Both the position numbers and the translations under genes were made by a program. Positions 5,266 to 31,794 of a stretch of 33,279 bases of DNA are shown piece by piece; the stretch's first letter is position 1, and each line of letters begins with the position of its first letter. This DNA is from an uncultured Candidatus Melainabacteria bacterium. GTDB taxonomy: Bacteria; Cyanobacteriota; Vampirovibrionia; Gastranaerophilales; Gastranaerophilaceae. Location of the stretch: the NCBI GenBank assembly GCA_946186335.1, contig CAMHMW010000002.1:1-33279 (forward strand). The letters run 5' to 3'. The notes under the pieces were generated by a model, which saw only the letters and a program-made list of their open reading frames with translations, made no database searches and was not told where the DNA came from.

Positions 5266-5357
5266 TTCTTTGTAAACTTACGTAAAGTTTTAGCAAAATA
5301 TTATTGCCTTTTGTTTTAATATGATAGAAAATACAAAAAGTGGATAGTGTGAGGAAC

Positions 5358-7883
5358 ATGATAACAGATAGTGTAACAAAACTACGAATAGACAGGAAAC
5401 GATACCCGCAGGAATACATGTCCCCCAATTCAGTTTCCAATTTTTATCCACAATATAAGAGTCGAAATTTTTATTCACAATATAACTATCAAGATATTAA
5501 GAGACCTTTAAAAACTAATCATCAGGATTTAAGTTTTAAAGGTCTTTCTTTTATGTATAAAGAATTAGATAAAAAATACAGCGTAAAGGAATTTCTTGAA
5601 TTTTCGGACAGACACTTTGGCAAAATGGGTCGTGAACTTTATGACGATATGGTAACAAAAAGAGCCGATATGACATCCGACTGGATTTCCGTTAAAGGGG
5701 ATGAGATTACTCTGAGAAAGAAAACAATTCCTCATCTCGCATTAGACGGTATTCTTTATCCTTTTAAAATTCTGCCTTTTGATATCTTAAACGGCATCGT
5801 TGAACTTTTGGGTAAAATTCCCGGACTCAAAAAATGGTCAAATAATGCTCTTGATAGCAAAATGTTTCAAAATATCAGACAGCGCTCTAAAATTGATGCC
5901 AAAATGAATTCGTTAAGAGGACTGATAACCTTCCATGATATGAAGATAAATCAGGCTGCGGAAAAAGAAGCAAAAAGATTAGGTAAAAACGTAAAAGACC
6001 TCACCCCCGAAGAAATGGCAAAAGTTAAAGCAGACGTTGACAAGAATATGGATTCTGACATTTTTAAAGCAGAATTAAAAATGTTTGACCCAAAATCCGG
6101 TAATTACGATACAAAACACGAAAGAGCATTAAACAGACTGGTTTCCGGTCTGCCTCCGGCAATATTTCTTGCAAATGATGCTTATAACCTCTCTCGTATG
6201 ATGGATGATGACGGTATAGCAGCAGAACACGAAAGAAAAGTACGTTTCAGACAGGAAGTCAGCAGAATTTTGGCAAGCGGTTACCTGACACTAATTACAA
6301 TGGGGGCTTTCCAAAAATTCATAAACAAATCCAAATTCGGTATTGTTTTAACAACAGGTGTTACGGTACTTGTAACAGAAATGTTCTCCCGTCTGACCAA
6401 CGGAAAACATATTACAAGATTAACCCCCGAACAGGCAAGAGCCGAAAACGAAAGAATGAATGCTCCCGAAGCAAAAATCAAAGTTGAAAAAGATACCGGA
6501 GTTTCCGCAAAAGGACTTAAAAAGCCAAAAGAAAAGGAACAACACAAACCGCTTTTATCATTTGATACATTATTAAAAGCATCAGGTATAATCTTAGGCT
6601 TAGGTTACGGAATTAAAGGAATAAAACATCTCCCGTCCGTTAAAAAAGCCGCATTAAATTACTTTGAAAATCTAAAGAAAAATAACAGTAAATTATATGA
6701 AGAACTCGGAATAGATAAGGCTTTTGCAGACTTTGACAAAGCATTAAAAAATGCAAACCCGAAAAAATACGAAAGATTAAACGAAACCGAAAGAAAACTT
6801 GAATACGCAGTAAAACTTTTTGAAGAAAAGGTTATATACAAACCGTTCACAAAACTCTACAAAGGTATGACAACAGAAGAATTTCTGGTAAAACCGAACG
6901 ACCTTGAAAAAGTCTTAAAGGCAATGAGAGATAACGGTTTTGAGAAATTAGCCGACAAATATGAAAGTATCGGCAAAGGTGCAGCAAGAGTAACCAAAAA
7001 CGGTCAGGAATTTTACGATTTCGGAAAGAAAGACAAAAAAGTCAAACCGCTTGTAAACTTTGTAATCGCACCGTTCAAATTCATCTGGAACACCATCACT
7101 CTGCCATACTGGATGATTGATGAAAAACTGTTAAACGTATTCAGAAAAACTCCGAAGATTTCAAAAGCAACATCAGAAATTGATGCTCTTGCTCACAGTT
7201 TTAACAAAATCTACAAACAGGCAACCAAAAAGAACTTTAACGAAAAAGAATTTAAAGATTATATTCAGGACAATCTGTTAAAAGCATTCAACGAAGATTC
7301 ATTATCAAGCGTATCAAATGCTGAATTGTCAAACCTCGCAAAAACAGCAGCATCAGTTGCTACAATATGGTTCCTGATGACTGATAACTACAATATGGTT
7401 ATGCTGAAATCAAACGGAAACGACAAAGAAGGCGCTAATACGAAATTCAAAGAAAGATTTGTTCAGGAAGGTTCAAGATTATTCTATCAGACATTATTGA
7501 TTGACCTGTTCAATTCAACCTTCAGAAACCAATACAACGCATCTTTACTTGGAATGAGTTGGGTAACCTTAGTTGATACGACATTAGGCGAAATGCTGAC
7601 ACGTTCATCTGTCGGAGTTCCGTTACAGACACATACAAGAGATGAACTGATTGATTTGGAAACCAAACAAAACAATTCAACAGGATTTAAGAAAAAATAT
7701 TATGACTTTATGCAGCGTCTGACAGGAAAACGCGCAATCAAGACCTATGAAGTTGCACCAAGACATCATCAAAACTCTGATGCTTCAATAATTCCTAGTC
7801 TTGATGCCAACAAACAGGTTATCTTCAAACAGAACAACGAAACTCTGGAAAAAATGAGAGCAGGGATAAGTGTTAATTACTAG
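5358..7883 (+). CDS. Large orphan protein with several hydrophobic segments; N-proximal LSFKG motif
   Basis: Long single ORF; Tyr/Asn-rich N-terminus then 'HQDLSFKGLSF'; hydrophobic stretches 'FGIVLTTGVTVLVTEMF', 'LLKASGIILGLGYGI', 'VIAPFKFIWNTITLPYWMI'. Alternative GTG start at 5340. Confidence 0.85.
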   Translation: MITDSVTKLRIDRKRYPQEYMSPNSVSNFYPQYKSRNFYSQYNYQDIKRPLKTNHQDLSFKGLSFMYKELDKKYSVKEFLEFSDRHFGKMGRELYDDMVTKRADMTSDWISVKGDEITLRKKTIPHLALDGILYPFKILPFDILNGIVELLGKIPGLKKWSNNALDSKMFQNIRQRSKIDAKMNSLRGLITFHDMKINQAAEKEAKRLGKNVKDLTPEEMAKVKADVDKNMDSDIFKAELKMFDPKSGNYDTKHERALNRLVSGLPPAIFLANDAYNLSRMMDDDGIAAEHERKVRFRQEVSRILASGYLTLITMGAFQKFINKSKFGIVLTTGVTVLVTEMFSRLTNGKHITRLTPEQARAENERMNAPEAKIKVEKDTGVSAKGLKKPKEKEQHKPLLSFDTLLKASGIILGLGYGIKGIKHLPSVKKAALNYFENLKKNNSKLYEELGIDKAFADFDKALKNANPKKYERLNETERKLEYAVKLFEEKVIYKPFTKLYKGMTTEEFLVKPNDLEKVLKAMRDNGFEKLADKYESIGKGAARVTKNGQEFYDFGKKDKKVKPLVNFVIAPFKFIWNTITLPYWMIDEKLLNVFRKTPKISKATSEIDALAHSFNKIYKQATKKNFNEKEFKDYIQDNLLKAFNEDSLSSVSNAELSNLAKTAASVATIWFLMTDNYNMVMLKSNGNDKEGANTKFKERFVQEGSRLFYQTLLIDLFNSTFRNQYNASLLGMSWVTLVDTTLGEMLTRSSVGVPLQTHTRDELIDLETKQNNSTGFKKKYYDFMQRLTGKRAIKTYEVAPRHHQNSDASIIPSLDANKQVIFKQNNETLEKMRAGISVNY

Positions 7884-7921
7884 GCTTTGACTTTTTATTT
7901 AGGCGGTGAGATAATTTATTT

Positions 7922-8794
7922 ATGTTAAAGTATTATGGTAAAACTGCACCATATTTGTTTTTACTGCCGGCCGCGGTAATTCTTGTGATATTCTTTTTTA
8001 TACCGTTTTTTCAGACTTTTTATTTGAGTTTTTTTGACTATTCAAACGATATTTATAATGCTGGTTTTACGGGGTTAAAAAACTATATCTCAATTCTGCA
8101 TAATCCCGTATTTTATAAGGTTTTATGGAACACAATTTTATATCTGGTTGTTGCAGTTCCGATTCTTGCAATTTTCCCGCTGCTGGTTGCGATTTTAATA
8201 AACCAGAAAATCAGAGGAATTACACTATACAAAATTCTTATATATTTGCCCGTAATTGTATCTATTGTTGTTGCGGCGATTGCGTTTAAGTGGCTTTACG
8301 CACAGGACGGAATACTGAATTATTTTATGCAGGTATTACACCTTCCTGCAATCGGCTGGCTTACAGACCCAAAATATGCCATATATTCGGTTATTATACT
8401 GACAATTTGGAAAGGTATCGGGTATTATATGATGATATATCTTGCCGCACTGATGAGTGTTCCGAAAGAACTCTATGAAGCATGCGAAATTGACGGGGCA
8501 GGATTTTGGAAAAAGCATTTGACAGTCACCGTTCCCCACATTATGCCGACAATAGCACTTGTCACAACAATAAGTTCAATTTCCGCAATGAAAATATTTG
8601 CAGAGATTTACGTTATGACAAAAGGCGGACCTTTAAACTCCACAAAAACAATAGTTTACTACATATACGAAAAAGCCTTTGAAAATCTTGATTTGGGTAT
8701 AGCATCGGCTATGGCTGTCATTTTGCTGGTTATCGTAATGGCATTTTCTCTTGTTAACATCCTGTGCTTTGAACGGAGGAAATATGACATTTAA
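7922..8794 (+). CDS. Carbohydrate ABC transporter permease (MalF/UgpA family)
   Basis: 'APYLFLLPAAVILVIFFFIPFFQTFYLSF' and EAA-loop 'MSVPKELYEACEIDGAGFWKKHLTVTVPHIMPT'. Confidence 0.94.
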   Translation: MLKYYGKTAPYLFLLPAAVILVIFFFIPFFQTFYLSFFDYSNDIYNAGFTGLKNYISILHNPVFYKVLWNTILYLVVAVPILAIFPLLVAILINQKIRGITLYKILIYLPVIVSIVVAAIAFKWLYAQDGILNYFMQVLHLPAIGWLTDPKYAIYSVIILTIWKGIGYYMMIYLAALMSVPKELYEACEIDGAGFWKKHLTVTVPHIMPTIALVTTISSISAMKIFAEIYVMTKGGPLNSTKTIVYYIYEKAFENLDLGIASAMAVILLVIVMAFSLVNILCFERRKYDI

Positions 8795-9632
8795 AATAAA
8801 TTTCAAAAACATTCCGACACATATTGTTTTAATATTGGTATCAATTATTTCAATATTCCCGTTCGTTTGGCTTTTATCAACATCCTTAAAAGGAAGCGGG
8901 GAGAATATTTTTGCATATCCGCCGACACTTATACCAAAAGATTTTACTTTTGCAAACTATACGGGGGTATGGCACAGAGTTGATTTGATGCGATATTTCA
9001 TAAACAGTATGATAGTTGCCGGAGGTACAGTTCTGTTAAACCTCATACTGTCCTCTCTTGCAGGCTACCCTCTTGCAAGAATGGAATTTAAGGGAAAGAA
9101 AATAACATTTTTTGCAATTCTTGCGACTATAATGATACCGTTTCAGGCAATAATGCTTCCTGTATATCTTATTACATTAAAACTGCATCTGGTGGACAGC
9201 GTATCGGATACAATGGGGTTTATCGGTTTAATTATGCCGTTTGCGGTTAGCGCATTCGGAATATTTTTGATGCGGCAGGCGTTTTTAACCATCCCCAGAG
9301 AAATGGAAGAAGCCGCAATAGTTGACGGGTGCAACGTTTTTCAGGTTTTTTGGAAAGTAATATTACCAATGGTAAAACCGTCACTTGCAGTACTTGCAAT
9401 ATTCACATTCATCGGGTCATGGGGAGAATTTCTCTGGCCAAGTATCGTATTAACAAAAGAAAGTATGTTCACTCTCCCTGTCGGGGTAAACAATTTACAG
9501 GGAATGTTTTCATCTAACTGGCGCTTTATTGCGGCAGGCTCAATTATCGCAACAATTCCGATTATAATATTTTTCCTTGCTATGCAAAAATATTTTATCT
9601 CGGGAGAAAATGAAGGTGCTGTAAAGGGGTAA
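8784..9632 (+). CDS. Carbohydrate ABC transporter permease (MalG/UgpE family)
   Basis: EAA-loop 'IPREMEEAAIVDGCNVFQVFWKVILPMVKPSLAVLAIF'; ATG at 8784 with SD GGAGG, overlapping the previous gene by 11 nt. Confidence 0.94.
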   Translation: MTFKINFKNIPTHIVLILVSIISIFPFVWLLSTSLKGSGENIFAYPPTLIPKDFTFANYTGVWHRVDLMRYFINSMIVAGGTVLLNLILSSLAGYPLARMEFKGKKITFFAILATIMIPFQAIMLPVYLITLKLHLVDSVSDTMGFIGLIMPFAVSAFGIFLMRQAFLTIPREMEEAAIVDGCNVFQVFWKVILPMVKPSLAVLAIFTFIGSWGEFLWPSIVLTKESMFTLPVGVNNLQGMFSSNWRFIAAGSIIATIPIIIFFLAMQKYFISGENEGAVKG

Positions 9633-9672: not shown

Positions 9673-11028
9673 ATGAGAATTTTACCGGTATCATACAACA
9701 CATATAACAGAGCGAGGAGTAAAAACCCGAATGTTTCGGGGCAGCAGAAAATCGCAATTAACCCAACGGCAAAACCTGACATGGTATCGTTTGGCAGTTC
9801 ACTTCCTAATGCTGACGGGCTAAGGTCTTTACTATCCCACAGCATACCTGATTTATATTCAAAAATAATTCTTCTGGACCCCGCAAAGTATGACATGCTC
9901 TTTGAAAAACAGGTATTTAACGGTTCATTAAGACAAATTTCATGGGATGTTTCTCCTCTTTCAAGTTCTCTTTTTAAAATTGAATATGACTTTTTTCATC
10001 TGTTGAGAAAAGAAGCAAAAATCAACCCTGATAAAGATTTACAGACTTTCGTACAGGAGCTTGTACCCGCACACAGCGAGCGGCTCAGAACCATTCAAAT
10101 TCCGAAATTAAAAAGAATTGAAGACTATTCACACAATTTCCCCGCTGATTTATTAAAACAATTTAACCATTTTATGTATACATCATATCAAAAATTGTAT
10201 GATGAAGAAGTTTTTGTCCCGTTCAGTGTGAAAGAATTTCATTACAAACTAAACAACGTAAAAAAACGTATTTTGAAAAACGCACAATCAGATGAAGAAA
10301 TTGCCGCAATAAGGCGATTGCAAAATATAGCCGGAAGTATTACTGATGTTCCGGAAGAAAGAAGAATGGCTCCCGGTTTTAATCTCACAAAATATGAAGA
10401 CCAGCAAAAAGCAATGATTAAAAAGTTTGCAGACTACCTTGAACGCTCAATTCTCGCTTACGACAAAGACCTTATTGAATTAACCGACAATTCCGAAAAA
10501 CGAATACACAAAGAAAAAACTCATTTAAAATTTAACAGAAAATCATTTATATACGAATTGCAGGAAATAACTTCCCTTCTGCCCGACAGAAGACTGGCTC
10601 ATTTAGTTGAAAAAGAAGCTATTGCACTTCCGACATCAAAAGAAAACCTGTCGGCATTTATAATGAAAGCGGAAAACCGTTCAAACGATCAAATAGGGTT
10701 CGACCTGTTAGCAGGCTCATTAGGAACTATAGACCATCTTGTTGCATCCCACAACGGCGGACTTGACAGACTTTCAAACTACGCACTTTCTTCTGCCTAT
10801 ATGAATTCTAAAAAGGCACACAAAAGTTTTGCCGAATGTTACAGGCATGACCCCAAAATCGCAGAATATGCGGAAAGACAAATTGAGAGATTTATATACC
10901 TTTATCATACCCAACGCAATATATTCAAAGATGCAAATCTTGATAAAGGGTATATTATTGGTCTTGCAAGAACATTAGAAAGACTTTCCAAAGACCCCAC
11001 TTTAATATTTGACACACGTAGGTTATAA
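9673..11028 (+). CDS. Hypothetical protein with HNH-like C-terminal motif; N-proximal VSFGS motif
   Basis: 'GTIDHLVASHNGGLDRLSNYALSSAYMNSKKAHKSF' matches the HNH spacing (D/E)H-x8-GG-x-D-x-L-x-N-x9-N-x2-K; paralogous to the next gene. Confidence 0.7.
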   Translation: MRILPVSYNTYNRARSKNPNVSGQQKIAINPTAKPDMVSFGSSLPNADGLRSLLSHSIPDLYSKIILLDPAKYDMLFEKQVFNGSLRQISWDVSPLSSSLFKIEYDFFHLLRKEAKINPDKDLQTFVQELVPAHSERLRTIQIPKLKRIEDYSHNFPADLLKQFNHFMYTSYQKLYDEEVFVPFSVKEFHYKLNNVKKRILKNAQSDEEIAAIRRLQNIAGSITDVPEERRMAPGFNLTKYEDQQKAMIKKFADYLERSILAYDKDLIELTDNSEKRIHKEKTHLKFNRKSFIYELQEITSLLPDRRLAHLVEKEAIALPTSKENLSAFIMKAENRSNDQIGFDLLAGSLGTIDHLVASHNGGLDRLSNYALSSAYMNSKKAHKSFAECYRHDPKIAEYAERQIERFIYLYHTQRNIFKDANLDKGYIIGLARTLERLSKDPTLIFDTRRL

Positions 11029-11044
11029 TATTAATAGATAAAGT

Positions 11045-12352
11045 ATGAAAAAAGCAATCCGAACGGTCAAAGAAGAAAAAAATATAACGCAGGATACCTG
11101 CGAAAATTCTGATGTGCAAATTAAACAAATTCAATATTATTATCCGGGGGAACACAGCGGAAACAACATTTCAAAAGTCCGACAACTTTTTCAGTACGGT
11201 ATCCCCGATATGTATAGCAGAAGAATAACCATTGACCCAAAAACAATAAGCAAATGGCTCAGAAACGGGATGTTTTCACGCCCCGCTACTGAAATTATGA
11301 AAGTTTTTGACAATTACCCCGAAAGTTTTATTGATTACGAATACGAGATAATAAAAATTATAAAAGAACGCAGCAAATACCATTCAAATATGACATTAAA
11401 AGAGATATTGCAGGAAGTCAGACCCGTTTACAGCAGAAAATTAAGAAAATTTCAGACGCCGATATTACACCAACTTTGGGAAGAATTTGAAAAACTGCCC
11501 GAGCCTTACAATTCAAAATTTATGACACTTTTACACAACTCCGACAAAATGCTCAGCGACAAACCCGTTGTCATTCCGTTTTCATCATATGAATTTAAGT
11601 ATAATCTTGCAAAAATCAAAACCTACATAGATGCAGGCTCAAACCTCAAAGCCAAAAAAGTTATGAAAAAACTAATCAAAGAATCATTGAGATTTTCCAA
11701 TTCCACCCACACAAACAATCTTAGTTATCAAAAAAGTGTTTTTATGTTTCTGAACCACATCAGAAAACGCTCAATTCTGAAAAATCACGAACAACTGTCC
11801 GAACTTTTTAAAGAAACTAAATCAAGAATTGACAGAAAAGAAATATTTATACCGTTCAGAAGGAAGTCGTTTATATACGATTTGGCAAAAATAATCGAAG
11901 ATTTACCCGATGAAGAATTAAAAGAAAAATTGATGTGTATCGCACAGAAACTGCCTACATCACGTCAGAATTTAGCCGCATACATTTTGAAATGTTCCAC
12001 AGACACGAACGATAAAATCGGCTACAGGCTGGTTTGGGCTTCAATGGCAACAATAGAACATTTAAAACCGCGTTCAACGGGCGGCACTGACGATTTGGCA
12101 AATTTGGGGATAGCATCCGCTATTGAAAATTCCGACAGAAAAAGTACTGATTTTACAATTCAACTGCAACTCCGTCCAAACACTCCAAAATATACCCAGC
12201 GGGTAATTGACCGACTTATTGAATTATATAATAACGGTATTTTTGAAAAAATTAACCTGTCACCCCAATACATCACAGGCTACGTCAATACGATTTATGA
12301 AGAATCAAAACATCAACTGAAACTTAATACGGATAATTTTGTAATAAATTAA
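11045..12352 (+). CDS. Hypothetical protein with HNH-like C-terminal motif (tandem paralogue)
   Basis: 'ATIEHLKPRSTGGTDDLANLGIASAIENSDRKSTDF'; shares 'GIPDMYSRRITIDPK', 'RPVYSRKLRKFQTP' and 'IPF...FIYDLAKI' with the preceding gene. Confidence 0.72.
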   Translation: MKKAIRTVKEEKNITQDTCENSDVQIKQIQYYYPGEHSGNNISKVRQLFQYGIPDMYSRRITIDPKTISKWLRNGMFSRPATEIMKVFDNYPESFIDYEYEIIKIIKERSKYHSNMTLKEILQEVRPVYSRKLRKFQTPILHQLWEEFEKLPEPYNSKFMTLLHNSDKMLSDKPVVIPFSSYEFKYNLAKIKTYIDAGSNLKAKKVMKKLIKESLRFSNSTHTNNLSYQKSVFMFLNHIRKRSILKNHEQLSELFKETKSRIDRKEIFIPFRRKSFIYDLAKIIEDLPDEELKEKLMCIAQKLPTSRQNLAAYILKCSTDTNDKIGYRLVWASMATIEHLKPRSTGGTDDLANLGIASAIENSDRKSTDFTIQLQLRPNTPKYTQRVIDRLIELYNNGIFEKINLSPQYITGYVNTIYEESKHQLKLNTDNFVIN

Positions 12353-16502: not shown

Positions 16503-16540
16503 TAAAAGCCCCGTTGAACATTCATTCTTCGGGACTTTCT
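16503..16540 (-). terminator. Probable terminator of the GH13 operon
   Basis: Minus strand AGTCCCGAAGAATGAATGTTCAACGGGGCTTTTAATT: 7-bp stem with one G-T pair, then a short T-rich tract. Confidence 0.45.
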
Positions 16541-16543
16541 CTC

Positions 16544-18256
16544 TTAATGCTGTTTATATACTTTTTTCGTATAGGTTTCTATATATGGGGTGTCAATTTC
16601 AAATACGTGTATTCTGCCGGGGGCAATATCAACGGAAATCTCACCCTTATTAACCTGGAATGTGCTTTCCTTACCATAAGACGGAAGCAGATTTTCAAGT
16701 TTCTGAGTTTCTTTTAATGTCGGCACAACAACTTTACATACATTATTTCTGTTTACGTTTTTATTTGCAATTACAAGTATTGTTCTGCCTTTTCTGTGTC
16801 TTGCAAAAGCAATAACCTGATCTAACTTGTCGCCTTTCTTATCAAGAACTATATATGAACCTCTTTTCATAACATCATCATACTTATCTCTGAATTTAAA
16901 CGCTGCGGTCATAAATTCACCGATTTGAGGGTCATCACCACCTGGACGTCTTGAAAGGTTAAATATGTCCAGTTTATTTCTGTGAACAGTCATTTCATGG
17001 TTGTCTGTCGAAGTTATATCATTATATTTATCTGCATATTGATAATCATATTTATCACCTGACTGGAAACCGTCAACGAAGTACGGATTCAGCATCGGTA
17101 AAGTAACTTCCAGACCTGACATCAGGTTACAGAACACTTCACCGCCGTGACACATCGGAGAGATGTCATCGTGAGTTGCAAATGAACCGATTAAGGATTT
17201 TCCTCTTTCTACTCTGTATGACATATTAAGGTTATCAATTACATAATCATGAAGTTCTTTTGCTGTATTCCATTCGTGGAAAATATGATACTGTCCGTAA
17301 TAGGCATCAAAACCTGCACGAAGCAAGTCTTCAGGTCTATCATAAGGCATATTCGCCTGCGGAGATGCATCTTCATAGGTATAAGATTCGGCAAGCCAAG
17401 CAAATTCAGGATCTCGTTTGTGAGAATATGGAATTATAATATCCCAAAATTCAACCGGTTTTGCTCTTGCAACATCGGCTCTTATACCGTCAACTCCCGC
17501 ATCTATCATCATATCAACGAACTTTCTGTGATATTCAAGCAATTTCGGGTTTAAAGTTCTTTTGCCTTCATCCTCCCATGGCTGAAACATTCTGATATCA
17601 TACCAGCCCTGAGGAGTTTTTGCCAAACCGTTTCTTTCATAAGCCATTAATTCCGGTCTTTCGTTATACAGGTCATAGGATGCGCAACTGGGCATATCAA
17701 CCATTACACGAATGCCTCTTTTGTGACATTCATCAACAAAAGCCTTAAACTGTTCTTTATCAGAACGGGAATCGTTTTTATCAATCAAAACAGGGTCAAT
17801 TTTTAACAAATCTTCCGGTGCATAAACAGAACCGGCAGTTCCCATTGCGTTACTTTTTCCGGGCGGATTTATCGGAAGCACATGCAAGGTATTAAAGCCT
17901 TGGGCTTTCACCTCATCCAGCCGGTCTATCGCATTAAGAAATGTTCCGTGAGTTTCATTCGGTTCAATAAATTCATCACCGTTTGTATCTTTTGCGTTAA
18001 ATGTTCTGGGTATCATTGCAAGAATAACCGCACTGTTTGTCAAAAACAGCGTTCTCAAATCGTTTTTATAAGGTTTATCCTCAACCTTTTGAGCATTTTG
18101 AACGACAGGGGCATTAGCAGCGGCAACCCCGTCAAGATAACTGGTAAGTAAATTACTTTCAAAACTCGGCTGAGCAGAAGGTTTATTCGCTCTGTTAAAA
18201 GAGTTATGCGGATAAACCGTATTATTTATGTATGGATTAAAAGATACGGTAAGCAT
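16544..18256 (-). CDS. GH13 (alpha-amylase superfamily) glycoside hydrolase/transferase
   Basis: Region II 'GIRADVARA', region III 'FAWLAES', region IV 'FATHDD'; 'ARAKPVEFWDIIIP...FAWLAESYT...GFDAYYGQYHIFHEWNTAKEL' resembles the GlgE/GH13_3 neighbourhood. SD GGAGG. Confidence 0.88.
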   Translation of the reverse strand: MLTVSFNPYINNTVYPHNSFNRANKPSAQPSFESNLLTSYLDGVAAANAPVVQNAQKVEDKPYKNDLRTLFLTNSAVILAMIPRTFNAKDTNGDEFIEPNETHGTFLNAIDRLDEVKAQGFNTLHVLPINPPGKSNAMGTAGSVYAPEDLLKIDPVLIDKNDSRSDKEQFKAFVDECHKRGIRVMVDMPSCASYDLYNERPELMAYERNGLAKTPQGWYDIRMFQPWEDEGKRTLNPKLLEYHRKFVDMMIDAGVDGIRADVARAKPVEFWDIIIPYSHKRDPEFAWLAESYTYEDASPQANMPYDRPEDLLRAGFDAYYGQYHIFHEWNTAKELHDYVIDNLNMSYRVERGKSLIGSFATHDDISPMCHGGEVFCNLMSGLEVTLPMLNPYFVDGFQSGDKYDYQYADKYNDITSTDNHEMTVHRNKLDIFNLSRRPGGDDPQIGEFMTAAFKFRDKYDDVMKRGSYIVLDKKGDKLDQVIAFARHRKGRTILVIANKNVNRNNVCKVVVPTLKETQKLENLLPSYGKESTFQVNKGEISVDIAPGRIHVFEIDTPYIETYTKKVYKQH

Positions 18257-18257
18257 A

Positions 18258-20801
18258 TTATTTTACCTCCTGAGTGTGATTTTTGGGCAATTTCATTCTG
18301 CCAAAGAAGAACTGCGCTCCGACCGTAACAGCAACAAGTGCAGCGCCGAGTTTTCCGAACATCGAGAACCATTTTTTACTGTTGAACACGTTATTAAAAT
18401 GTTTGTATGCCATTTCATCAGATGCGGCACCCATCAGCAAAAATCTGAACAACGACGTACTCTTGTTTGGTGCAAACCCGACAAGATGATGAGATTTTGC
18501 GAAATATTCATCCCCGCCGAGAACTTCAAATGCCTGAGTTCTGTAATTTCTGAAATCATCAAGCAAGCCTGAATTTGTGAGTCTTACAACGGTATCAGGA
18601 TGAATATCTTCTTTATACATTAATTTCATAACAGATTTAAAGTATTCTCTGTCATTTGCAAGTTCAACTTTATGTTCGGGAACATTTCCGTAATATTTAT
18701 TCTTAACTTTTCCATCTGCCCCGACTTCTATATCTGAGAAATCATCTCTGTTAGGTTCGGGATTACGTCTTTGCCAGAACTTGACAGCAAAATCAGATGT
18801 GTGACCTTCGAGCATTAGCGATTTTGCAAGTTCAACACATTCTTCTTTAATTTCTCTCGGCATTTTAGAGTGCAAGGTTTCGCTTATATTTGTTCCTGTT
18901 GCAACTCTGTGATAAAGGTCTGCCAAACTCAACAAGCGGTAGAAAGAACTTTTTACCCCGAGTTTTCTGTCTTCAATAAATTCAAACATCAGAGCCTTAG
19001 CGGATGTCGCATTCTTATCTCCGAAACCTATCAAAGAATCAACGGCATTTTCCATACCCAGAGATTTGAACACCTCAGCCGCTGCCTTAAAGGATTCATC
19101 AACGTGAGATTTATAACTGTTTTTGGTTGCATCCTGAGTCATATCAATTCTTGACATACCATCATGCATTGAAGAAAGTCCCTTTTGAACGACTTCAACA
19201 AACTCGGCGTATGCTGTTTTATCCGCCGCAATTGCTTCAAGTTTGCTTCTTAGAATTTCACCTGCGAGTTCTCTGTCTAAGCGGCCTTTTTTAATTTCCT
19301 CAGGTGTAAATTTCATAGCCTTAAATATATCTTTTTCAACTTCATTCCACGAATCTGCCAGCCCTGTTTCCGGAGCCTGTGCGGCTTTCAGGAATGAATA
19401 TTCTTCAAGAACCGTTGTCTCAGCCTTCAATTTATTAACCGCCTCAGAAATCTTAATCAGCATTCTTGCCATATCATCGGTTAAAACGCTTGACGATATA
19501 TGTTTAAAAGACTGGAATAATTCTGAATCTGCACCAAATTCTTTTGAGTGAATCAACTGTTTCAAATTAAATTTCAATTTTTTAATTACGGGATTATCGG
19601 GATTTTCTTTGCTTAATTCTTCGATTCTGTTTTCAAGTAAGTTCTGAATAACCTTTGAATGTTCGGAAAAATCAGAAAAATCACCATTGAACAAACCTCT
19701 GGAATTCAGAGCATCTATTATTGCCTGATTATCAGGAACAAGTTTTGTAAGTTCTTCCTCCGAAAGATTAATACCTGAATATGCTTTTCTGACTGCATCC
19801 GAAATATCCGACAAATTAGTTTCCGAAAGATTATATTTGCCGTCAAGCGGAATTTTATTTCTTAAATCTTTCAAAATTCCGTTGGAAATCATATAATCAA
19901 GTTCGTCAGTTAAATTCATTGTAATGGTTTCATAGAGTTCGGGAGTTATCGGTTTACCGGCATTTTCATTTAATATTTGCTGCAAGGCTCTTTTGTTTTC
20001 TTCAAACTTGTATTTTTTAACCTCATCGGGGAAACCGCTCATCAATTTATCTGCCTTTTGGCTTTTTACTTTTGACAGGTATTTTGAAACAGGTTCTTCA
20101 AGAATATTACACATTAAAGCACTCATCACGGGGGTTGCAAAACCTGCCGTAAGCATCCAAAGAGTATTATTTTGAAGTGCGATTTTGCGCATTTTCTCTT
20201 GTATAAATTCCCGCCTGTTAGGGATATCTTTAGGAACATGAAGCCTGTCACCGATTTTGTTTATTTCTTTATCAGAATACAAATCCCACGGAATAAACTG
20301 GTGGTCCTGATAAAACATTTTCTTTCTTCCGAAACTGTCTTCATACTGTTGTCTGACATTAACCCCATGTATCAAATATGCGGGAAGCTGAATAAATAAT
20401 TTCGGCCACAAATCCATCGCTGCGAAAAATGTACCGAACCCGATAAATTCAAATAACTTTGTCATCGGTGTCTGCTTTTTGGTAAACAGATAAGAGGCAA
20501 TCGCCAGACTGCCGAGTTTCATTCCGACATCGTTCAGTCTGCCGAGTTCATGGTCGTTTGCTTCCCCTTTTGCGGCATGACGAAAAGCGTCACAATCATA
20601 CAAGATATCCTTTCTGATTTGCGAGGGAATGTCAAATATACTGTTTCGTATCAGTTTTCCGTTGCTTGGCAGCGGTTTTATAAAGGTTCTGTTTGCCAGT
20701 TCTTTATTTACATCAAAATCTTTAACGGCTTTATCTGCGTTATACCTGTCCGATGAGGGGTAGCCCTGAATATATGATTGTATTAAATTCGAAGTTCTCA
20801 T
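18258..20801 (-). CDS. Large orphan protein with hydrophobic segments
   Basis: Single 847-aa ORF whose ATG directly follows the upstream stop (TAGATG); hydrophobic stretches near residues 90-140 and at the C-terminus ('KLGAALVAVTVGAQFFFGRMKLPK'). Confidence 0.85.
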   Translation of the reverse strand: MRTSNLIQSYIQGYPSSDRYNADKAVKDFDVNKELANRTFIKPLPSNGKLIRNSIFDIPSQIRKDILYDCDAFRHAAKGEANDHELGRLNDVGMKLGSLAIASYLFTKKQTPMTKLFEFIGFGTFFAAMDLWPKLFIQLPAYLIHGVNVRQQYEDSFGRKKMFYQDHQFIPWDLYSDKEINKIGDRLHVPKDIPNRREFIQEKMRKIALQNNTLWMLTAGFATPVMSALMCNILEEPVSKYLSKVKSQKADKLMSGFPDEVKKYKFEENKRALQQILNENAGKPITPELYETITMNLTDELDYMISNGILKDLRNKIPLDGKYNLSETNLSDISDAVRKAYSGINLSEEELTKLVPDNQAIIDALNSRGLFNGDFSDFSEHSKVIQNLLENRIEELSKENPDNPVIKKLKFNLKQLIHSKEFGADSELFQSFKHISSSVLTDDMARMLIKISEAVNKLKAETTVLEEYSFLKAAQAPETGLADSWNEVEKDIFKAMKFTPEEIKKGRLDRELAGEILRSKLEAIAADKTAYAEFVEVVQKGLSSMHDGMSRIDMTQDATKNSYKSHVDESFKAAAEVFKSLGMENAVDSLIGFGDKNATSAKALMFEFIEDRKLGVKSSFYRLLSLADLYHRVATGTNISETLHSKMPREIKEECVELAKSLMLEGHTSDFAVKFWQRRNPEPNRDDFSDIEVGADGKVKNKYYGNVPEHKVELANDREYFKSVMKLMYKEDIHPDTVVRLTNSGLLDDFRNYRTQAFEVLGGDEYFAKSHHLVGFAPNKSTSLFRFLLMGAASDEMAYKHFNNVFNSKKWFSMFGKLGAALVAVTVGAQFFFGRMKLPKNHTQEVK

Positions 20802-21842
20802 CTAACACACCACACTTTCTTTTTTTGGACTGATAACTTTTTTCGGATTTTGTTTATTCGGCTTTTTGGTAAGGTGGACAGTATTTATAACACCGATAAC
20901 AGTAGATGCCAACGCTGTACCTGCAAGTATTTTACCCGAATGTCTTTCAAGTTTTGACAGAGATTTTTTATCACCATTTATTAATTCGTATGCGCTTTTT
21001 ACAAAACTTTCACCAAAAATTTTCAGAGAATGCAGAAATTCTTTACCTTTCCAGAATTTAAAAGTTGCAACCTTAAAATAATCCTCCCACGGTTTCTGGA
21101 ATGCGAGAGCAACGCCTGTTGCCGCCCACAAGAATGATGAGAAACTCTTTGCCAGATTTGATTTAACCAAAACTTCTTTGTATATCGGCTTAACTTCCTG
21201 ATCCGAATCATTAAGATTCTGTCCCAGACCATTCTTTTGGGCAATTTTGTCATATCTCCAGTTTACGCTTTCACCTTTTTGCGGATTTCCATACAACTGG
21301 TCCCAACGGGGAAAATCAACACTTTCACCAACTTTATGATATTCAATACTTGTCAGATTATTATAATCCTCAGGATTTTCCTGAAGTAAATAGTTAACCT
21401 TAGCGTACGGGAGTTCTGTATCAATACCGGTCAGCCATTTTACGGGCAGATTAACAAACGATTTTGAAACCGATTTAAACACCCCGTATAAAATAACGCC
21501 GAGAGCCATTTTGTTACCGATTTTTGCGGCATTAACTCTTGAAAACGGAGAGAAATGTTTGTTTGCGGAATTAAATACTGACATAAGAGTTAAACTTCCG
21601 ATAATGTACGGAACATTACCCATTGTCAGAAATTCATAGAAATTAGAGTTTTTATTACCGGCAAGCCCTTTTGCGGGATATAAAGTGAAGGCTTTTGTAA
21701 GTTTATCAAGCCCTATTCTTGTTCGGGTAACAAAATTGTTTTTCAGCAAAGTATCACGGGTATAACTGACGTTCTTCTCCTCTTTTTTGTCAGACCCAAA
21801 AGATAAAGTTTTCCCATTATAGTTGCTGATTGGTGATATCAT
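20802..21842 (-). CDS. Orphan membrane-like protein; N-proximal LSFGS motif
   Basis: SD GGAG; 'MISPISNYNGKTLSFGSDKKEEKN'; hydrophobic 'PYIIGSLTLMSVF', 'MALGVILYGVF', 'FLWAATGVALAF', 'ILAGTALASTVIGVINTVHLTKK'. Confidence 0.85.
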   Translation of the reverse strand: MISPISNYNGKTLSFGSDKKEEKNVSYTRDTLLKNNFVTRTRIGLDKLTKAFTLYPAKGLAGNKNSNFYEFLTMGNVPYIIGSLTLMSVFNSANKHFSPFSRVNAAKIGNKMALGVILYGVFKSVSKSFVNLPVKWLTGIDTELPYAKVNYLLQENPEDYNNLTSIEYHKVGESVDFPRWDQLYGNPQKGESVNWRYDKIAQKNGLGQNLNDSDQEVKPIYKEVLVKSNLAKSFSSFLWAATGVALAFQKPWEDYFKVATFKFWKGKEFLHSLKIFGESFVKSAYELINGDKKSLSKLERHSGKILAGTALASTVIGVINTVHLTKKPNKQNPKKVISPKKESVVC

Positions 21843-21957: not shown

Positions 21958-22800
21958 TTATCCGTAAATATTGAAGAAAACAAAGGCAAAAAGCCCCATA
22001 ATGACGCAATACCATCCGAATACATTTAAAGAAAATTTTGCAATAAATTTCATAAAATATTTAATACAAAGATAACCGACAATACCTGATACAAGCGTTC
22101 CCGTAATTATCGCCGTCCAGTTATAGGTCAGTGCCTGTGCAACGTCAATTTTAATAAGCGGATAGACCATAGAAGCCCCGAGAATTATCGGAATACTCAA
22201 AAGAAAAGAATATCTTGCGGCTTTTTCTCTGCTTAACCCCGAAAATAATCCTGTTGCAATTGTCCACCCCGAACGTGAAAAACCTGGGAGAACTGCAATT
22301 CCCTGAGCCAGACCGATTAATACAGACTCTTTTAAACCGACCTCATCCTTTTTAACCTGCTTTTTAGACAGATATTCACTCAAAAACAAGGTTCCGCCAG
22401 TTATAACAAGCAAGCCGCCTACCAGTGCAGGATGAAATACCAGATGATTTGCGACTTTTTCAAGCGGCAGAGCAAGAACTATTGTAACAACAGTTCCAAG
22501 TATTATATAAAGCCCGAGTTTTGCGTTATATTCGGATAAACTCCTTGTCTTTACGGCTTTAAATAACGCCTTGCAGATTTCAATAACATCTCTGCGGAAG
22601 AATATCAGAACAGCAATCAGTGTCCCCAAATGAAGCATGATATCCAAAAATACTTCTTCCGTTGACTGCTCCGCAATAGGAATATTTTTAAACACTTTAT
22701 AAAAATTTGAAGTAAACACAAGATGCGCAGAACTTGATATGGGCAAGAACTCACTCAAGCCCTGTACCACTCCCATTAATACTGTCTGAATTAAATTCAT
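21958..22800 (-). CDS. uppP: Undecaprenyl-diphosphatase
   Basis: 'VQGLSEFLPISSSAHLVF' and 'LPGFSRSGWTIATGLFSGLSREKAARYSFLLSIPIILGA' (BacA/UppP signatures). Confidence 0.97.
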   Translation of the reverse strand: MNLIQTVLMGVVQGLSEFLPISSSAHLVFTSNFYKVFKNIPIAEQSTEEVFLDIMLHLGTLIAVLIFFRRDVIEICKALFKAVKTRSLSEYNAKLGLYIILGTVVTIVLALPLEKVANHLVFHPALVGGLLVITGGTLFLSEYLSKKQVKKDEVGLKESVLIGLAQGIAVLPGFSRSGWTIATGLFSGLSREKAARYSFLLSIPIILGASMVYPLIKIDVAQALTYNWTAIITGTLVSGIVGYLCIKYFMKFIAKFSLNVFGWYCVIMGLFAFVFFNIYG

Positions 22801-22805
22801 TTCGC

Positions 22806-23168
22806 CTAATTTTCCTCAAAATATGAACAGCACGATGTCTGAGTTTCCCAGACGGTAATTTTGTTTAACTGAACGATTTTCTCTTTCAATTTTGTATAAA
22901 TATATGCCGCAATCATTTCACTTGACGGACTTTCTCCTTTAAATTCAGGAAGTTCATTAATATCTTTATGATCAAGAGTATCCAAAACCGCATTAAGTTC
23001 ACGTTTGAGGACTTTGTAATCGATAAGAATATTACTCTGATTTAAAACTTCACCCTGAACAAATGCCTCTACCATCCAGTTGTGACCATGTTGATTTTCG
23101 CATTCACCCTCATAGTTTAAAAGGTGATGTGCAGCTGAAAAAAACGCTTGTGTTTTAATTTCGTACAT
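22806..23168 (-). CDS. queD: 6-carboxytetrahydropterin synthase-like (QueD/PTPS family)
   Basis: 'FFSAAHHLLNYEGECENQHGHNWMVEAFVQG', 'ILIDYKVLKRELNAVLDTLDHKDIN', 'ESPSSEMIAAYIY'. Confidence 0.9.
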   Translation of the reverse strand: MYEIKTQAFFSAAHHLLNYEGECENQHGHNWMVEAFVQGEVLNQSNILIDYKVLKRELNAVLDTLDHKDINELPEFKGESPSSEMIAAYIYTKLKEKIVQLNKITVWETQTSCCSYFEEN

Positions 23169-23181
23169 CTTTTATCCCTTC

Positions 23182-23682
23182 TTATTGTTCTGAATCTTTT
23201 ACCGAATCAAATACCAAATCGCATAACTCTCTGACTGCCCCGCGACCTCCGTCATTTTCCGATACAAAATTGCATACATTTTTTACTCTGTTTACCGCAT
23301 CGGCAGGACAAGCCGCAATTGCGACTTTTTCAAGTATTGCTATATCGGGTTCATCATCTCCCATATACGCAACTTGTGAAAAATCAAGTTCATATTTTTG
23401 CATAATCGCCTCAAGTATAGGCAGTTTATTTTTTACGCCCTGATAAACCTCCGTTACCCTTAAATCAGTAGCTCGTCTGTCAACAGTACCGTTATTTCTG
23501 CCTGTTATTATAGCAGTTATAAAGCCGTATTTTGCCATTTTTGCAAGTCCATGACCGTCTTTTGCGTTAAAGGTTTTGTATTCAACACCGTTTTCGTCAT
23601 AAGTAATGCTGCCGTCAGTCATCACGCCATCGACATCAAATGCCAGCAATTTAATTTTAGCGGCTTTTTCTTTTAAATCCAT
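23182..23682 (-). CDS. kdsC: 3-deoxy-D-manno-octulosonate 8-phosphate phosphatase (HAD, KdsC type)
   Basis: 'KLLAFDVDGVMTDGSITYDENGVEYKTFNAKDGHGLAKMAKYGFITAIITGR', 'YMGDDEPDIAILEKV'. Confidence 0.94.
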   Translation of the reverse strand: MDLKEKAAKIKLLAFDVDGVMTDGSITYDENGVEYKTFNAKDGHGLAKMAKYGFITAIITGRNNGTVDRRATDLRVTEVYQGVKNKLPILEAIMQKYELDFSQVAYMGDDEPDIAILEKVAIAACPADAVNRVKNVCNFVSENDGGRGAVRELCDLVFDSVKDSEQ

Positions 23683-24671
23683 TACGCAACCCCTGCTCTT
23701 AACAAGTCATGAACATGAATTACACCAACCGGGACATTTCTTTCATCAACAACAGCAAGAGCCGTAATTGAATATTTTTCCATCAAATTCAAAGCTGATG
23801 CGGCATAAGCATCTTCTGTTATTCTTTTCGGATTACTTGTCATAACATCTTTAACCATCAAATCTGATATATTGTTTTCATATTTTATAACGGTTCTTCT
23901 GATGTCACCATCTGTTAATACGCCCGACAAAATACCGTCTGAGCCGACAATCATCGCCATGCCGAGTTTGTATTCTGAAATTATATTAATAACACCCGTA
24001 AAACTTTCATTATCGCTGACAACAGGCATTCTGTCACCCGTTATCATCAAATCCTTAACCTTGTATGTTAACCCTTTACCGAGTTTTCCGGAGGGATGGA
24101 ACATCAAAAAGTCCTCTTTTGTAAAGCCTTTTTTCTCCATAAGACATACAGCCAGAGCATCACCCATCGCAAGAGTAGCCGTTGTACTTGCTGTTGGGGC
24201 TTTTCCAAGAGTATCAGCTTCCCTTTCAACGGAAATATCAAGAATTACATCACTGGTTTTGGCAAGTGTGGAATTAACATTACCCGTCATTCCTATCATC
24301 GGGCACCCAAAACGCTTGATTAACGGCAGTAAATTCATCAGCTCCTGAGTCTCTCCGCTGTTTGAAATCGCAATAATGACATCATTTCTTGTGATTACAC
24401 CGGAATCCCCGTGTGTGCTTTCCGCGGGATGAAGAAAATATGTCGGAGTTCCCGTTGAGGACATCGTTGCGGCAATTTTTTTGCCGATTATACCCGATTT
24501 TCCCATACCCGTAACAATAACTCTGCCTTTGCAGTTGTATAAAATTTCTATTGCTCTGTCAAAGTCTTCTCCTATATTATCTTTTAAACGTAAAATAGAC
24601 TTTGCTTCAATATCCAAAACTTCTTTTGCCGATTCAATAATTCTGCTTAATGTCATAGCTACCATATCCAC
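23682..24671 (-). CDS. kdsD: Arabinose-5-phosphate isomerase (KdsD/KpsF/GutQ), SIS plus CBS domains
   Basis: 'GRVIVTGMGKSGIIGKKIAATMSSTGTPTYFLHPAESTHGDSGVI', 'FHPSGKLGKGL', C-terminal CBS pair. Confidence 0.95.
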   Translation of the reverse strand: MDMVAMTLSRIIESAKEVLDIEAKSILRLKDNIGEDFDRAIEILYNCKGRVIVTGMGKSGIIGKKIAATMSSTGTPTYFLHPAESTHGDSGVITRNDVIIAISNSGETQELMNLLPLIKRFGCPMIGMTGNVNSTLAKTSDVILDISVEREADTLGKAPTASTTATLAMGDALAVCLMEKKGFTKEDFLMFHPSGKLGKGLTYKVKDLMITGDRMPVVSDNESFTGVINIISEYKLGMAMIVGSDGILSGVLTDGDIRRTVIKYENNISDLMVKDVMTSNPKRITEDAYAASALNLMEKYSITALAVVDERNVPVGVIHVHDLLRAGVA

Positions 24672-30400: not shown

Positions 30401-30956
30401 AGTTGCGATTGTCGGAAATATTGCAAGCGGGAAAACTACCGTTGAGGACTATTTGAAAAAGAAAAAATATCCCGTACTTGATACGGATGAAGCTTGTCAC
30501 AAATGGCTTGTTAAAGCGGACGAAATTAAAGAGGCGTTTAAAGATTATGATGTTTTTGAAAATGATGAGATTTCAAGAGATAAACTCGGAAAACTTGTGT
30601 TTTCAAATTCTGAATTAAAAAAGACCCTCGAGGATATTTTATACCCCTACGTAAGAGTTGAGATTGCAAGATTTATTGCAAAAAACAAAGACTGCAAATA
30701 TGTATTTGTTTCCATTCCGCTTTTATACGAAGCAAAAATGGAAGATTTATTTGATAAAGTATTATTTGTATATTGCAATGATGAGATACGTCTGAAACGA
30801 CTAATCTCACGAAATCACTATGACGAGGAATACGCAAAAATAAGAATGAATGCTCAGGGCTCTCAAGATGAGAAAGCCCTTAAAGCCGATTGGGTTGTTT
30901 ATAACAACTCCGTTGTTGAGGAATTATATTTACAAATTTCTAAACTAATTGGATAA
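30393..30956 (+). CDS. coaE: Dephospho-CoA kinase
   Basis: 'VAIVGNIASGKTTVEDYL', 'VLDTDEACHKWL', 'FVSIPLLYEAKMEDLFDKVLFVYCNDEIRLKRLISRN'. Confidence 0.93.
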   Translation: MLRVAIVGNIASGKTTVEDYLKKKKYPVLDTDEACHKWLVKADEIKEAFKDYDVFENDEISRDKLGKLVFSNSELKKTLEDILYPYVRVEIARFIAKNKDCKYVFVSIPLLYEAKMEDLFDKVLFVYCNDEIRLKRLISRNHYDEEYAKIRMNAQGSQDEKALKADWVVYNNSVVEELYLQISKLIG

Positions 30957-31794
30957 ATCCGCTGACATCCGTTTCAAAAGGTGAGTGATTTACCGGAACA
31001 ACAGCATCAATATTTTTTGGCGTTCTTACATTACCCTCTATCGTAACGTATTCCCCTGTTTTGCGGTCAACACTTTTTACAATACCGGTATGGGATGCTC
31101 CGTTTTCCCGCATAATAACTATATCTCCGGGTTTAACATTATTTTTTATTATATCCTGCTTATTTGTCTGCCCCGCAGTATATAAGAATTTATTATTCTT
31201 TATTGCCCAGCGTTTAAGATTTTCACAACGCCAGCTTCCAAAACCTGCGGGCGGGGTTTTGCCCTGCTGCAAATATGTTTCTTTAACAACATAGGTTACA
31301 AAATCAGCACACCATTCCTTATCGTTTGAAAATCTGCGGAATGACCCGTCAAGTTCATTATATCCGACATATTTTTCTGCATTTGAGGCAATTTTTTGGG
31401 CGAACACTTTTGCCGAATTATCAGCAGGTGTTCGTGACGGAGTATTAGATCTTGTCGGAGAAGAAACGGTCGATGTTCGTGAGGTGCGTGATACGCCGTT
31501 ACCTCCGCCTCTGCCGGTAAAATTATATATCTGTCCGAGCGGGGAATATGCTGAATTATTCTGTCCTCCTAATGTCAGATTTCCGAAAATTGAGGCGGAA
31601 GCATCGTAAGGATTTACATTATATGCATAATTCATAAAGGAATTATTGGTATTCTGACCTTTTGAAAAATTATACACAGGACCGCCAAAACTCATTGACG
31701 CACAATTATACTGATAATTGTCGTAAGCCATCAATGTTCCCGTAATATCTGTCCGCTCGGTTATCGGCGAATACATGTTAACAAACCAGTTCAT
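30940..31794 (-). CDS. CHAP-domain protein (putative peptidoglycan amidase/endopeptidase); N-proximal MSFGG motif
   Basis: 'EWCADFVTYVVKET' (Cys), 'GASHTGIVKSVDRKTGEYVTIEGNV' (His/Glu-Asn) CHAP signatures; Ser/Thr/Gly-rich linker; no classical signal peptide seen. Confidence 0.88.
   Translation of the reverse strand: MNWFVNMYSPITERTDITGTLMAYDNYQYNCASMSFGGPVYNFSKGQNTNNSFMNYAYNVNPYDASASIFGNLTLGGQNNSAYSPLGQIYNFTGRGGGNGVSRTSRTSTVSSPTRSNTPSRTPADNSAKVFAQKIASNAEKYVGYNELDGSFRRFSNDKEWCADFVTYVVKETYLQQGKTPPAGFGSWRCENLKRWAIKNNKFLYTAGQTNKQDIIKNNVKPGDIVIMRENGASHTGIVKSVDRKTGEYVTIEGNVRTPKNIDAVVPVNHSPFETDVSGFIQLV

Follow-up and report, generated by a model that had tools for sequence, protein, structure and literature searches.

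Three genes lie end to end on the minus strand of the window, by which we mean the whole 33,279-nucleotide stretch of DNA that was analyzed, from a genome of Candidatus Gastranaerophilales, gut relatives of cyanobacteria in a class once called Melainabacteria. The first, ORF1 (20802..21842; 346 aa), encodes a putative membrane protein with four predicted hydrophobic helices and a variable N-terminus, and has no match in Pfam or NCBIfam. The second, ORF2 (18258..20801; 847 aa), encodes a predicted membrane domain, a long helical insert, and a C-terminal hydrophobic helix with a basic tail. The third, ORF3 (16544..18256; 570 aa), encodes a GH13 enzyme without a signal peptide. The ORF1 stop codon (TAG) directly abuts the ORF2 start codon (ATG; 20804-20799), and a single T separates the ORF2 stop codon (TAA; 18260-18258) from the ORF3 start codon (ATG; 18256). 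These are the coordinates and the spacing described in an earlier note on this DNA. The candidate terminator in that note also holds up: a stable, intrinsic-terminator-like hairpin with a U-tract follows the GH13 gene on the minus strand (16504..16539; dG −18.5, z −4.46). By contrast, the claim that Shine-Dalgarno (SD) sequences occur only at the ends of the operon is wrong. On the minus strand, an AGGAGG (18266..18271) lies within the coding end of ORF2, 9 nt ahead of the GH13 start. Because a strong SD of its own precedes the GH13 gene, the earlier argument from translational coupling was partly overstated.

Conservation and distribution of the trio

Using tblastn with the three proteins, we found that 74 of 80 named relatives keep the whole ORF1-ORF2-GH13 order; contig ends cut the remaining six. 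ORF2 lies directly before the GH13 gene in all 80 named loci. The spacing is similarly constrained: when starts are assigned by a mechanical rule, ORF1 and ORF2 are separated by −4 to +2 nt in 99/99 loci, and ORF2 and ORF3 by −17 to +11 nt in 76/78. The trio order is also kept in the loci read from other families of the order (f3-f7) and from two families outside it (f9 and f15), with one rearrangement; the exception, locus L219 (genome G054), has the order ORF3-ORF1-ORF2.

Across a class-wide sample (146 genomes), the profiles of ORF2 and ORF3 match exactly the same 65 genomes, which fall in three families. The ORF1 profile finds 61, and the four that it misses have ORF1-like genes upstream in the fetched loci. 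Among 23 further genomes (22 from other families of the order and one of the host's own genus), ORF2 was found in 16 and ORF3 in 17; in G051, which accounts for the difference, the locus runs into a contig edge. Neither gene was found in the other six genomes of this set (G036, G042, G044, G047, G052, and G053); the trio is therefore not essential to the order. In a phylum-level sample, 131 of 292 genomes, all of them Gastranaerophilales, carry the ORF2 membrane domain, which is absent from the other 161 at E ≤0.001; no genome of f9 or f15 appears in this sample, though f9 and f15 genomes in the class-wide sample have the domain. The trio is a highly conserved orphan gene set of the Gastranaerophilales. 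The earlier note would have abandoned its proposal had the gene order been unique to this genome, or had the two orphans been soluble and unrelated; the order recurs across relatives, and the orphans are homologous, with four predicted hydrophobic helices each.

The membrane proteins and the ORF2-GH13 fusions

Family-averaged hydropathy has four peaks in each of ORF1 and ORF2, and each protein closes with a hydrophobic stretch and then a basic tail, as had been noticed by eye. In ORF1, the predicted helices span aa 71-89, 112-130, 230-248, and 305-323. The layout is alike in ORF2: two helices close together, a third ~80–120 residues further on, and a fourth near the C-terminus, with helix 1 of ORF2 being marginal by hydropathy. 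The conserved membrane domain of ORF2 (aa 75-265; 20007..20579) has no Pfam match of note and is the main part of the protein that can be recognized class-wide. Between helices 3 and 4 lies a variable segment of ~530 residues (aa 266-793; 18423..20006), mostly helical in the AlphaFold2 model and poorly conserved in other families. The C-terminal helix follows (aa 794-832, with the hydrophobic stretch at 815-833; 18306..18422). The ORF2 model has a pLDDT of 80.2 and a pTM of 0.67, with the helical segment locally confident.

The earlier note had pointed to a vaguely similar pattern in the two orphans (LPxxLxG...PxWDxLY). This pattern reflects real homology. A deep ORF1 profile (A5) and a deep profile of the ORF2 domain (A4), both including order- and class-level members, align by hhalign with a probability of 98.9 and E 1.3e-17 over 134 columns, and the pattern falls inside this match. 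The homologous domain of ORF1 covers about aa 68-250 (21093..21641). Moreover, in distant relatives the ORF2 profile also picks up ORF1 genes, with E values as low as 4e-8, and whole-genome searches with the ORF2 domain return ORF1 genes as weaker second matches. Profiles built from shallow alignments gave a probability of 10.7 for ORF1 versus ORF2, and a two-sequence BLASTP aligned ORF1 aa 49-109 with ORF2 aa 755-824, another register, at no better than E 0.001. Judged by the deep alignments, ORF1 and ORF2 are paralogous, predicted membrane proteins with one common domain. No relative of this domain was found in sequence searches of Pfam, NCBIfam, or the PDB, no transporter family in Pfam or NCBIfam matched either protein, and a fold search with the full ORF2 model returned nothing at E ≤0.001. 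Matches of ORF2 to DUF7229, PRK01151, and designed helical repeats were weak, and we rejected them as due to chance or composition.

Several orphans in the window, including ORF1, carry an N-terminal motif of the LSFGS/VSFGS/MSFGG type (20802-21842, 9673-11028, 30940-31794, and others). The frequency of the general form, xSFG(S/G), at first appeared to be 16% against about 1%, an excess that comes mostly from the trio; once the trio is left out, the motif occurs in 9 of 246 families against about 1.4% per later block (~2.6-fold). Another 847-aa orphan (5340-9632), with hydrophobic stretches and LSFKG near its N-terminus, sits directly before two sugar-ABC-type permease genes. Two adjacent, related-looking orphans of 451 and 435 aa (9673-12352) have in common an IDHL/IEHL...GGxDxLxN stretch reminiscent, by eye, of HNH nucleases.

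In three genomes of family f9 (loci L193, L194, and L195), ORF2 and ORF3 form one open frame, encoding proteins of 1030, 1082, and 986 aa, respectively. These fusions consist of the membrane domain, a shortened helical part, the last hydrophobic helix, equivalent to that of ORF2, and then GH13. An AlphaFold2 model of a fusion has a helical N-terminal half and a C-terminal half with the GH13 fold; with a pTM of 0.55, the arrangement of the domains in this model is not reliable. Natural fusion is strong evidence that the ORF2 and ORF3 products work as one unit. A genome with a fusion also has an unfused second copy of the trio (L196; G083:C12), whose GH13 gene has lost the HDD motif (TPYDY) and may encode an inactive protein.

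The GH13 enzyme and its genomic setting

The identification of the third gene as GH13 was correct. ORF3 matches the alpha-amylase family PF00128 (E 4.7e-6; 26.5 bits, cut-off 22), and its closest PDB profile matches are 1gju (3.2e-18), 4gkl (4.9e-17), and 3dhu (6.7e-16), with the GlgE group also near. The catalytic region covers aa ~75-566 (16559..18034), as supported by PF00128, the PDB profile matches, and the fold of the modeled fusion homologue. Both the profile match and the Asp, Glu, and Asp of regions II, III, and IV place it in GH13. On the minus strand, the corresponding codons are Asp261 at the nucleophile position (GIRADVA; 17474..17476), Glu290 at the acid/base position (AWLAES; 17387..17389), and Asp363 at the position of the transition-state stabilizer (ATHDD; 17168..17170). 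All three residues are invariant in an alignment of 28 ORF3 family members (A3); Asp261 and Glu290 are also invariant in the distant homologues, where Asp363 is lost only in L196. In region I, D187 is present and the typical, though not universal, NH is replaced by PSCAS; we read this as a subfamily trait because the aligned segment of 1gju also lacks NH. On these sequence features, ORF3 is a predicted alpha-retaining GH13 enzyme in the maltosyltransferase/maltogenic-amylase neighborhood, and its conserved triad suggests that it is catalytically active.

Instead of a signal peptide, ORF3 has a variable, hydrophilic N-terminal extension. The family-f1 genomes searched have a second ORF3 homologue, and those homologues that were read have a signal-peptide-like start. 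Because ORF3 differs from this paralogue in lacking such a start, it is probably cytoplasmic. The paralogue lies at G000:C52:9-1058 (L235) in the host genome (G000) and at L237:6396-7943, and in the genus loci read it has a common neighborhood of its own, with an HU-like gene and others.

The host genome also encodes a GT5 glycogen synthase (G000:C144; E 5e-70), located away from the trio, and a GT35 phosphorylase-like protein (G000:C55). In many order-level and f9 loci, the trio is adjoined by a gene for a giant GH13 protein of 1000–1400 aa that is related to neopullulanase and cyclomaltodextrinase; in L260 it lies 37 bp downstream on the same strand. The host's own giant GH13 (G000:C22:4159-8277; L234), of 1372 aa, is encoded away from the trio and has a long insertion inside the barrel; it has no Pfam match at E 0.01, whereas its order-level homologues do. 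In other relatives, the neighbors of the trio include a starch-synthase-like gene (L198), a partial GT gene (L206), and a GlgC-like gene (L223).

Upstream of the trio (21958-24671) lie four genes that, from reading their sequences, we take to be kdsD, kdsC, queD (or queD-like), and uppP. Among 49 family-f1 loci, uppP, queD, and kdsC are upstream in 45, and the kdsD-kdsC-queD-uppP synteny is kept in 37 to 45. The loci read from f3-f7, f9, and f15 did not show it. A gap of about 115 bp separates uppP from the ORF1 start. These bacteria have been described as starch and glycogen fermenters with an LPS envelope (PMC3787301, PMC4040986).

Function of the trio and comparison with known systems

We think it probable that the trio makes a GH13 enzyme that is tethered to the inner membrane on its cytoplasmic side and acts on cytoplasmic alpha-glucan. 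The tethering is well supported: the fusion of ORF2 with the enzyme in distant relatives makes it probable that the membrane holds the enzyme at its inner face, and the position of the fused enzyme, after the last ORF2 helix, makes a cytoplasmic ORF2 C-terminus likely. The other elements, namely an alpha-glucan substrate, transfer as opposed to hydrolysis, membrane insertion and orientation, and a complex in this species, we infer from hydropathy, models, family resemblance, and genome context. ORF1 and ORF2 would sit in the membrane as anchor or scaffold, as hydropathy and the ORF2 model suggest, and ORF2 would hold ORF3 at the cytoplasmic face, for which the fusions argue strongly. ORF3, presumably active given its triad, may act on the cell's own cytoplasmic alpha-1,4-glucan, as the genome context suggests; from family resemblance, it would most likely transfer or release maltosyl or maltodextrin units. 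It may work alongside the giant second GH13 protein, whose gene adjoins the trio in many relatives. The membrane-anchored complex proposed in the earlier note is favored by the conserved trio, the homologous membrane proteins, and the fusions, and loses part of its argument from coupling. The proposed handling of alpha-glucan, a plausible substrate, is favored by the glycogen synthase in the genome and by the starch-synthase-like, GlgC-like, and giant GH13 neighbors in some relatives. Against our reading, the host's own glycogen synthase and giant GH13 are encoded elsewhere, and the upstream neighbors are envelope genes.

Because kdsD, kdsC, queD, and uppP lie directly upstream in most family-f1 loci, we keep open a role in the envelope, in which the complex would act on an envelope glycan or lipid-linked acceptor and not on storage glucan, for example by adding alpha-glucosyl or maltosyl units to a lipid or lipopolysaccharide precursor. 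Placement at the membrane would suit a membrane-borne acceptor, and the related GlgE makes an alpha-glucan that mycobacteria export. An LPS outer membrane has been inferred for these bacteria (PMC3787301). However, the upstream synteny was seen only in f1, neighbors in f3-f7, f9, and f15 include the giant GH13, GlgC-like, and starch-synthase-like genes, and about 115 bp separate uppP from ORF1; overall, we consider an envelope role unlikely. Less likely still is an ordinary metabolic operon with no standing complex, in which a soluble GH13 enzyme would just be expressed together with two membrane proteins whose role is unrelated. Closely packed genes are frequent in compact genomes, and the GH13 gene has its own SD, but the co-occurrence of ORF2 and GH13 in 65/65 genomes, the conservation of spacing and order beyond the order, and the ORF2-enzyme fusion in three genomes all argue against this. 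It is very improbable that GH13 is a non-catalytic subunit, one that, in the manner of 4F2hc/rBAT, would chaperone or gate a transporter made up of ORF1 and ORF2 in the membrane: GH13 domains that serve membrane transporters are known (PMC8537225), and the usual NH is missing from region I of ORF3, yet the Asp, Glu, and Asp are invariant in the family alignment and in all but one distant homologue examined, the best profile match is the active enzyme MTase, and neither membrane protein matches a transporter family.

A variation on tethering, about which we are doubtful, is an undescribed, lineage-specific membrane machine that would assemble or prime alpha-glucan in these non-photosynthetic relatives of cyanobacteria. 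Two paralogous four-helix scaffolds from a new domain family would hold one or two GH13 transferases at the inner membrane, and these would build or remodel glucan on a primer or lipid borne by the membrane. The alpha-glucan enzymes of bacteria are usually regarded as soluble or secreted. In the open-access literature, we found no paper on the trio operon or on membrane-tethered bacterial GH13 enzymes, and the accessible part of a large 2024 review of prokaryotic alpha-glucan enzymes mentions neither “transmembrane” nor “membrane-bound.” If the tethered enzyme is real, a new family of paired membrane scaffolds dedicated to GH13 would give bacterial glycogen biology a site at the membrane, along with a functional handle on an orphan gene set of the Gastranaerophilales, gut bacteria known mostly from metagenomes.

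Among known systems, the Thermotoga maltosyltransferase MTase (1gju), the best PDB profile match, has in common with ORF3 a PRTxxA N-terminal stretch as well as a region I without NH; only parts of the two align, the region of the catalytic triad weakly, and we know of no link between MTase and membrane proteins. By Foldseek, the GH13 half of the fusion best matches the fold of Thermotoga neapolitana AmyB (4gkl; TM-score by target 0.79), with the Lactobacillus plantarum amylase 3dhu close to it (0.76). Both share a GTxGSxY motif with the GH13 proteins described here; they differ in having about 20% identity and in not being tied to such membrane proteins. The maltosyltransferase GlgE (GH13_3) has a barrel similar in sequence and fold, but its PDB alignments span only aa ~97-295 of ORF3, within the barrel, its accessory domains are unmatched, and no GlgE model is among the NCBIfam matches of ORF3. 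The heavy chains of heteromeric amino acid transporters, 4F2hc and rBAT, resemble the trio in that a GH13 domain is tied to membrane proteins. They are single-pass, extracellular proteins that serve animal transporters, and a non-catalytic GH13 of their kind would be expected to have lost catalytic residues, whereas ORF3 is probably cytoplasmic and keeps its triad.
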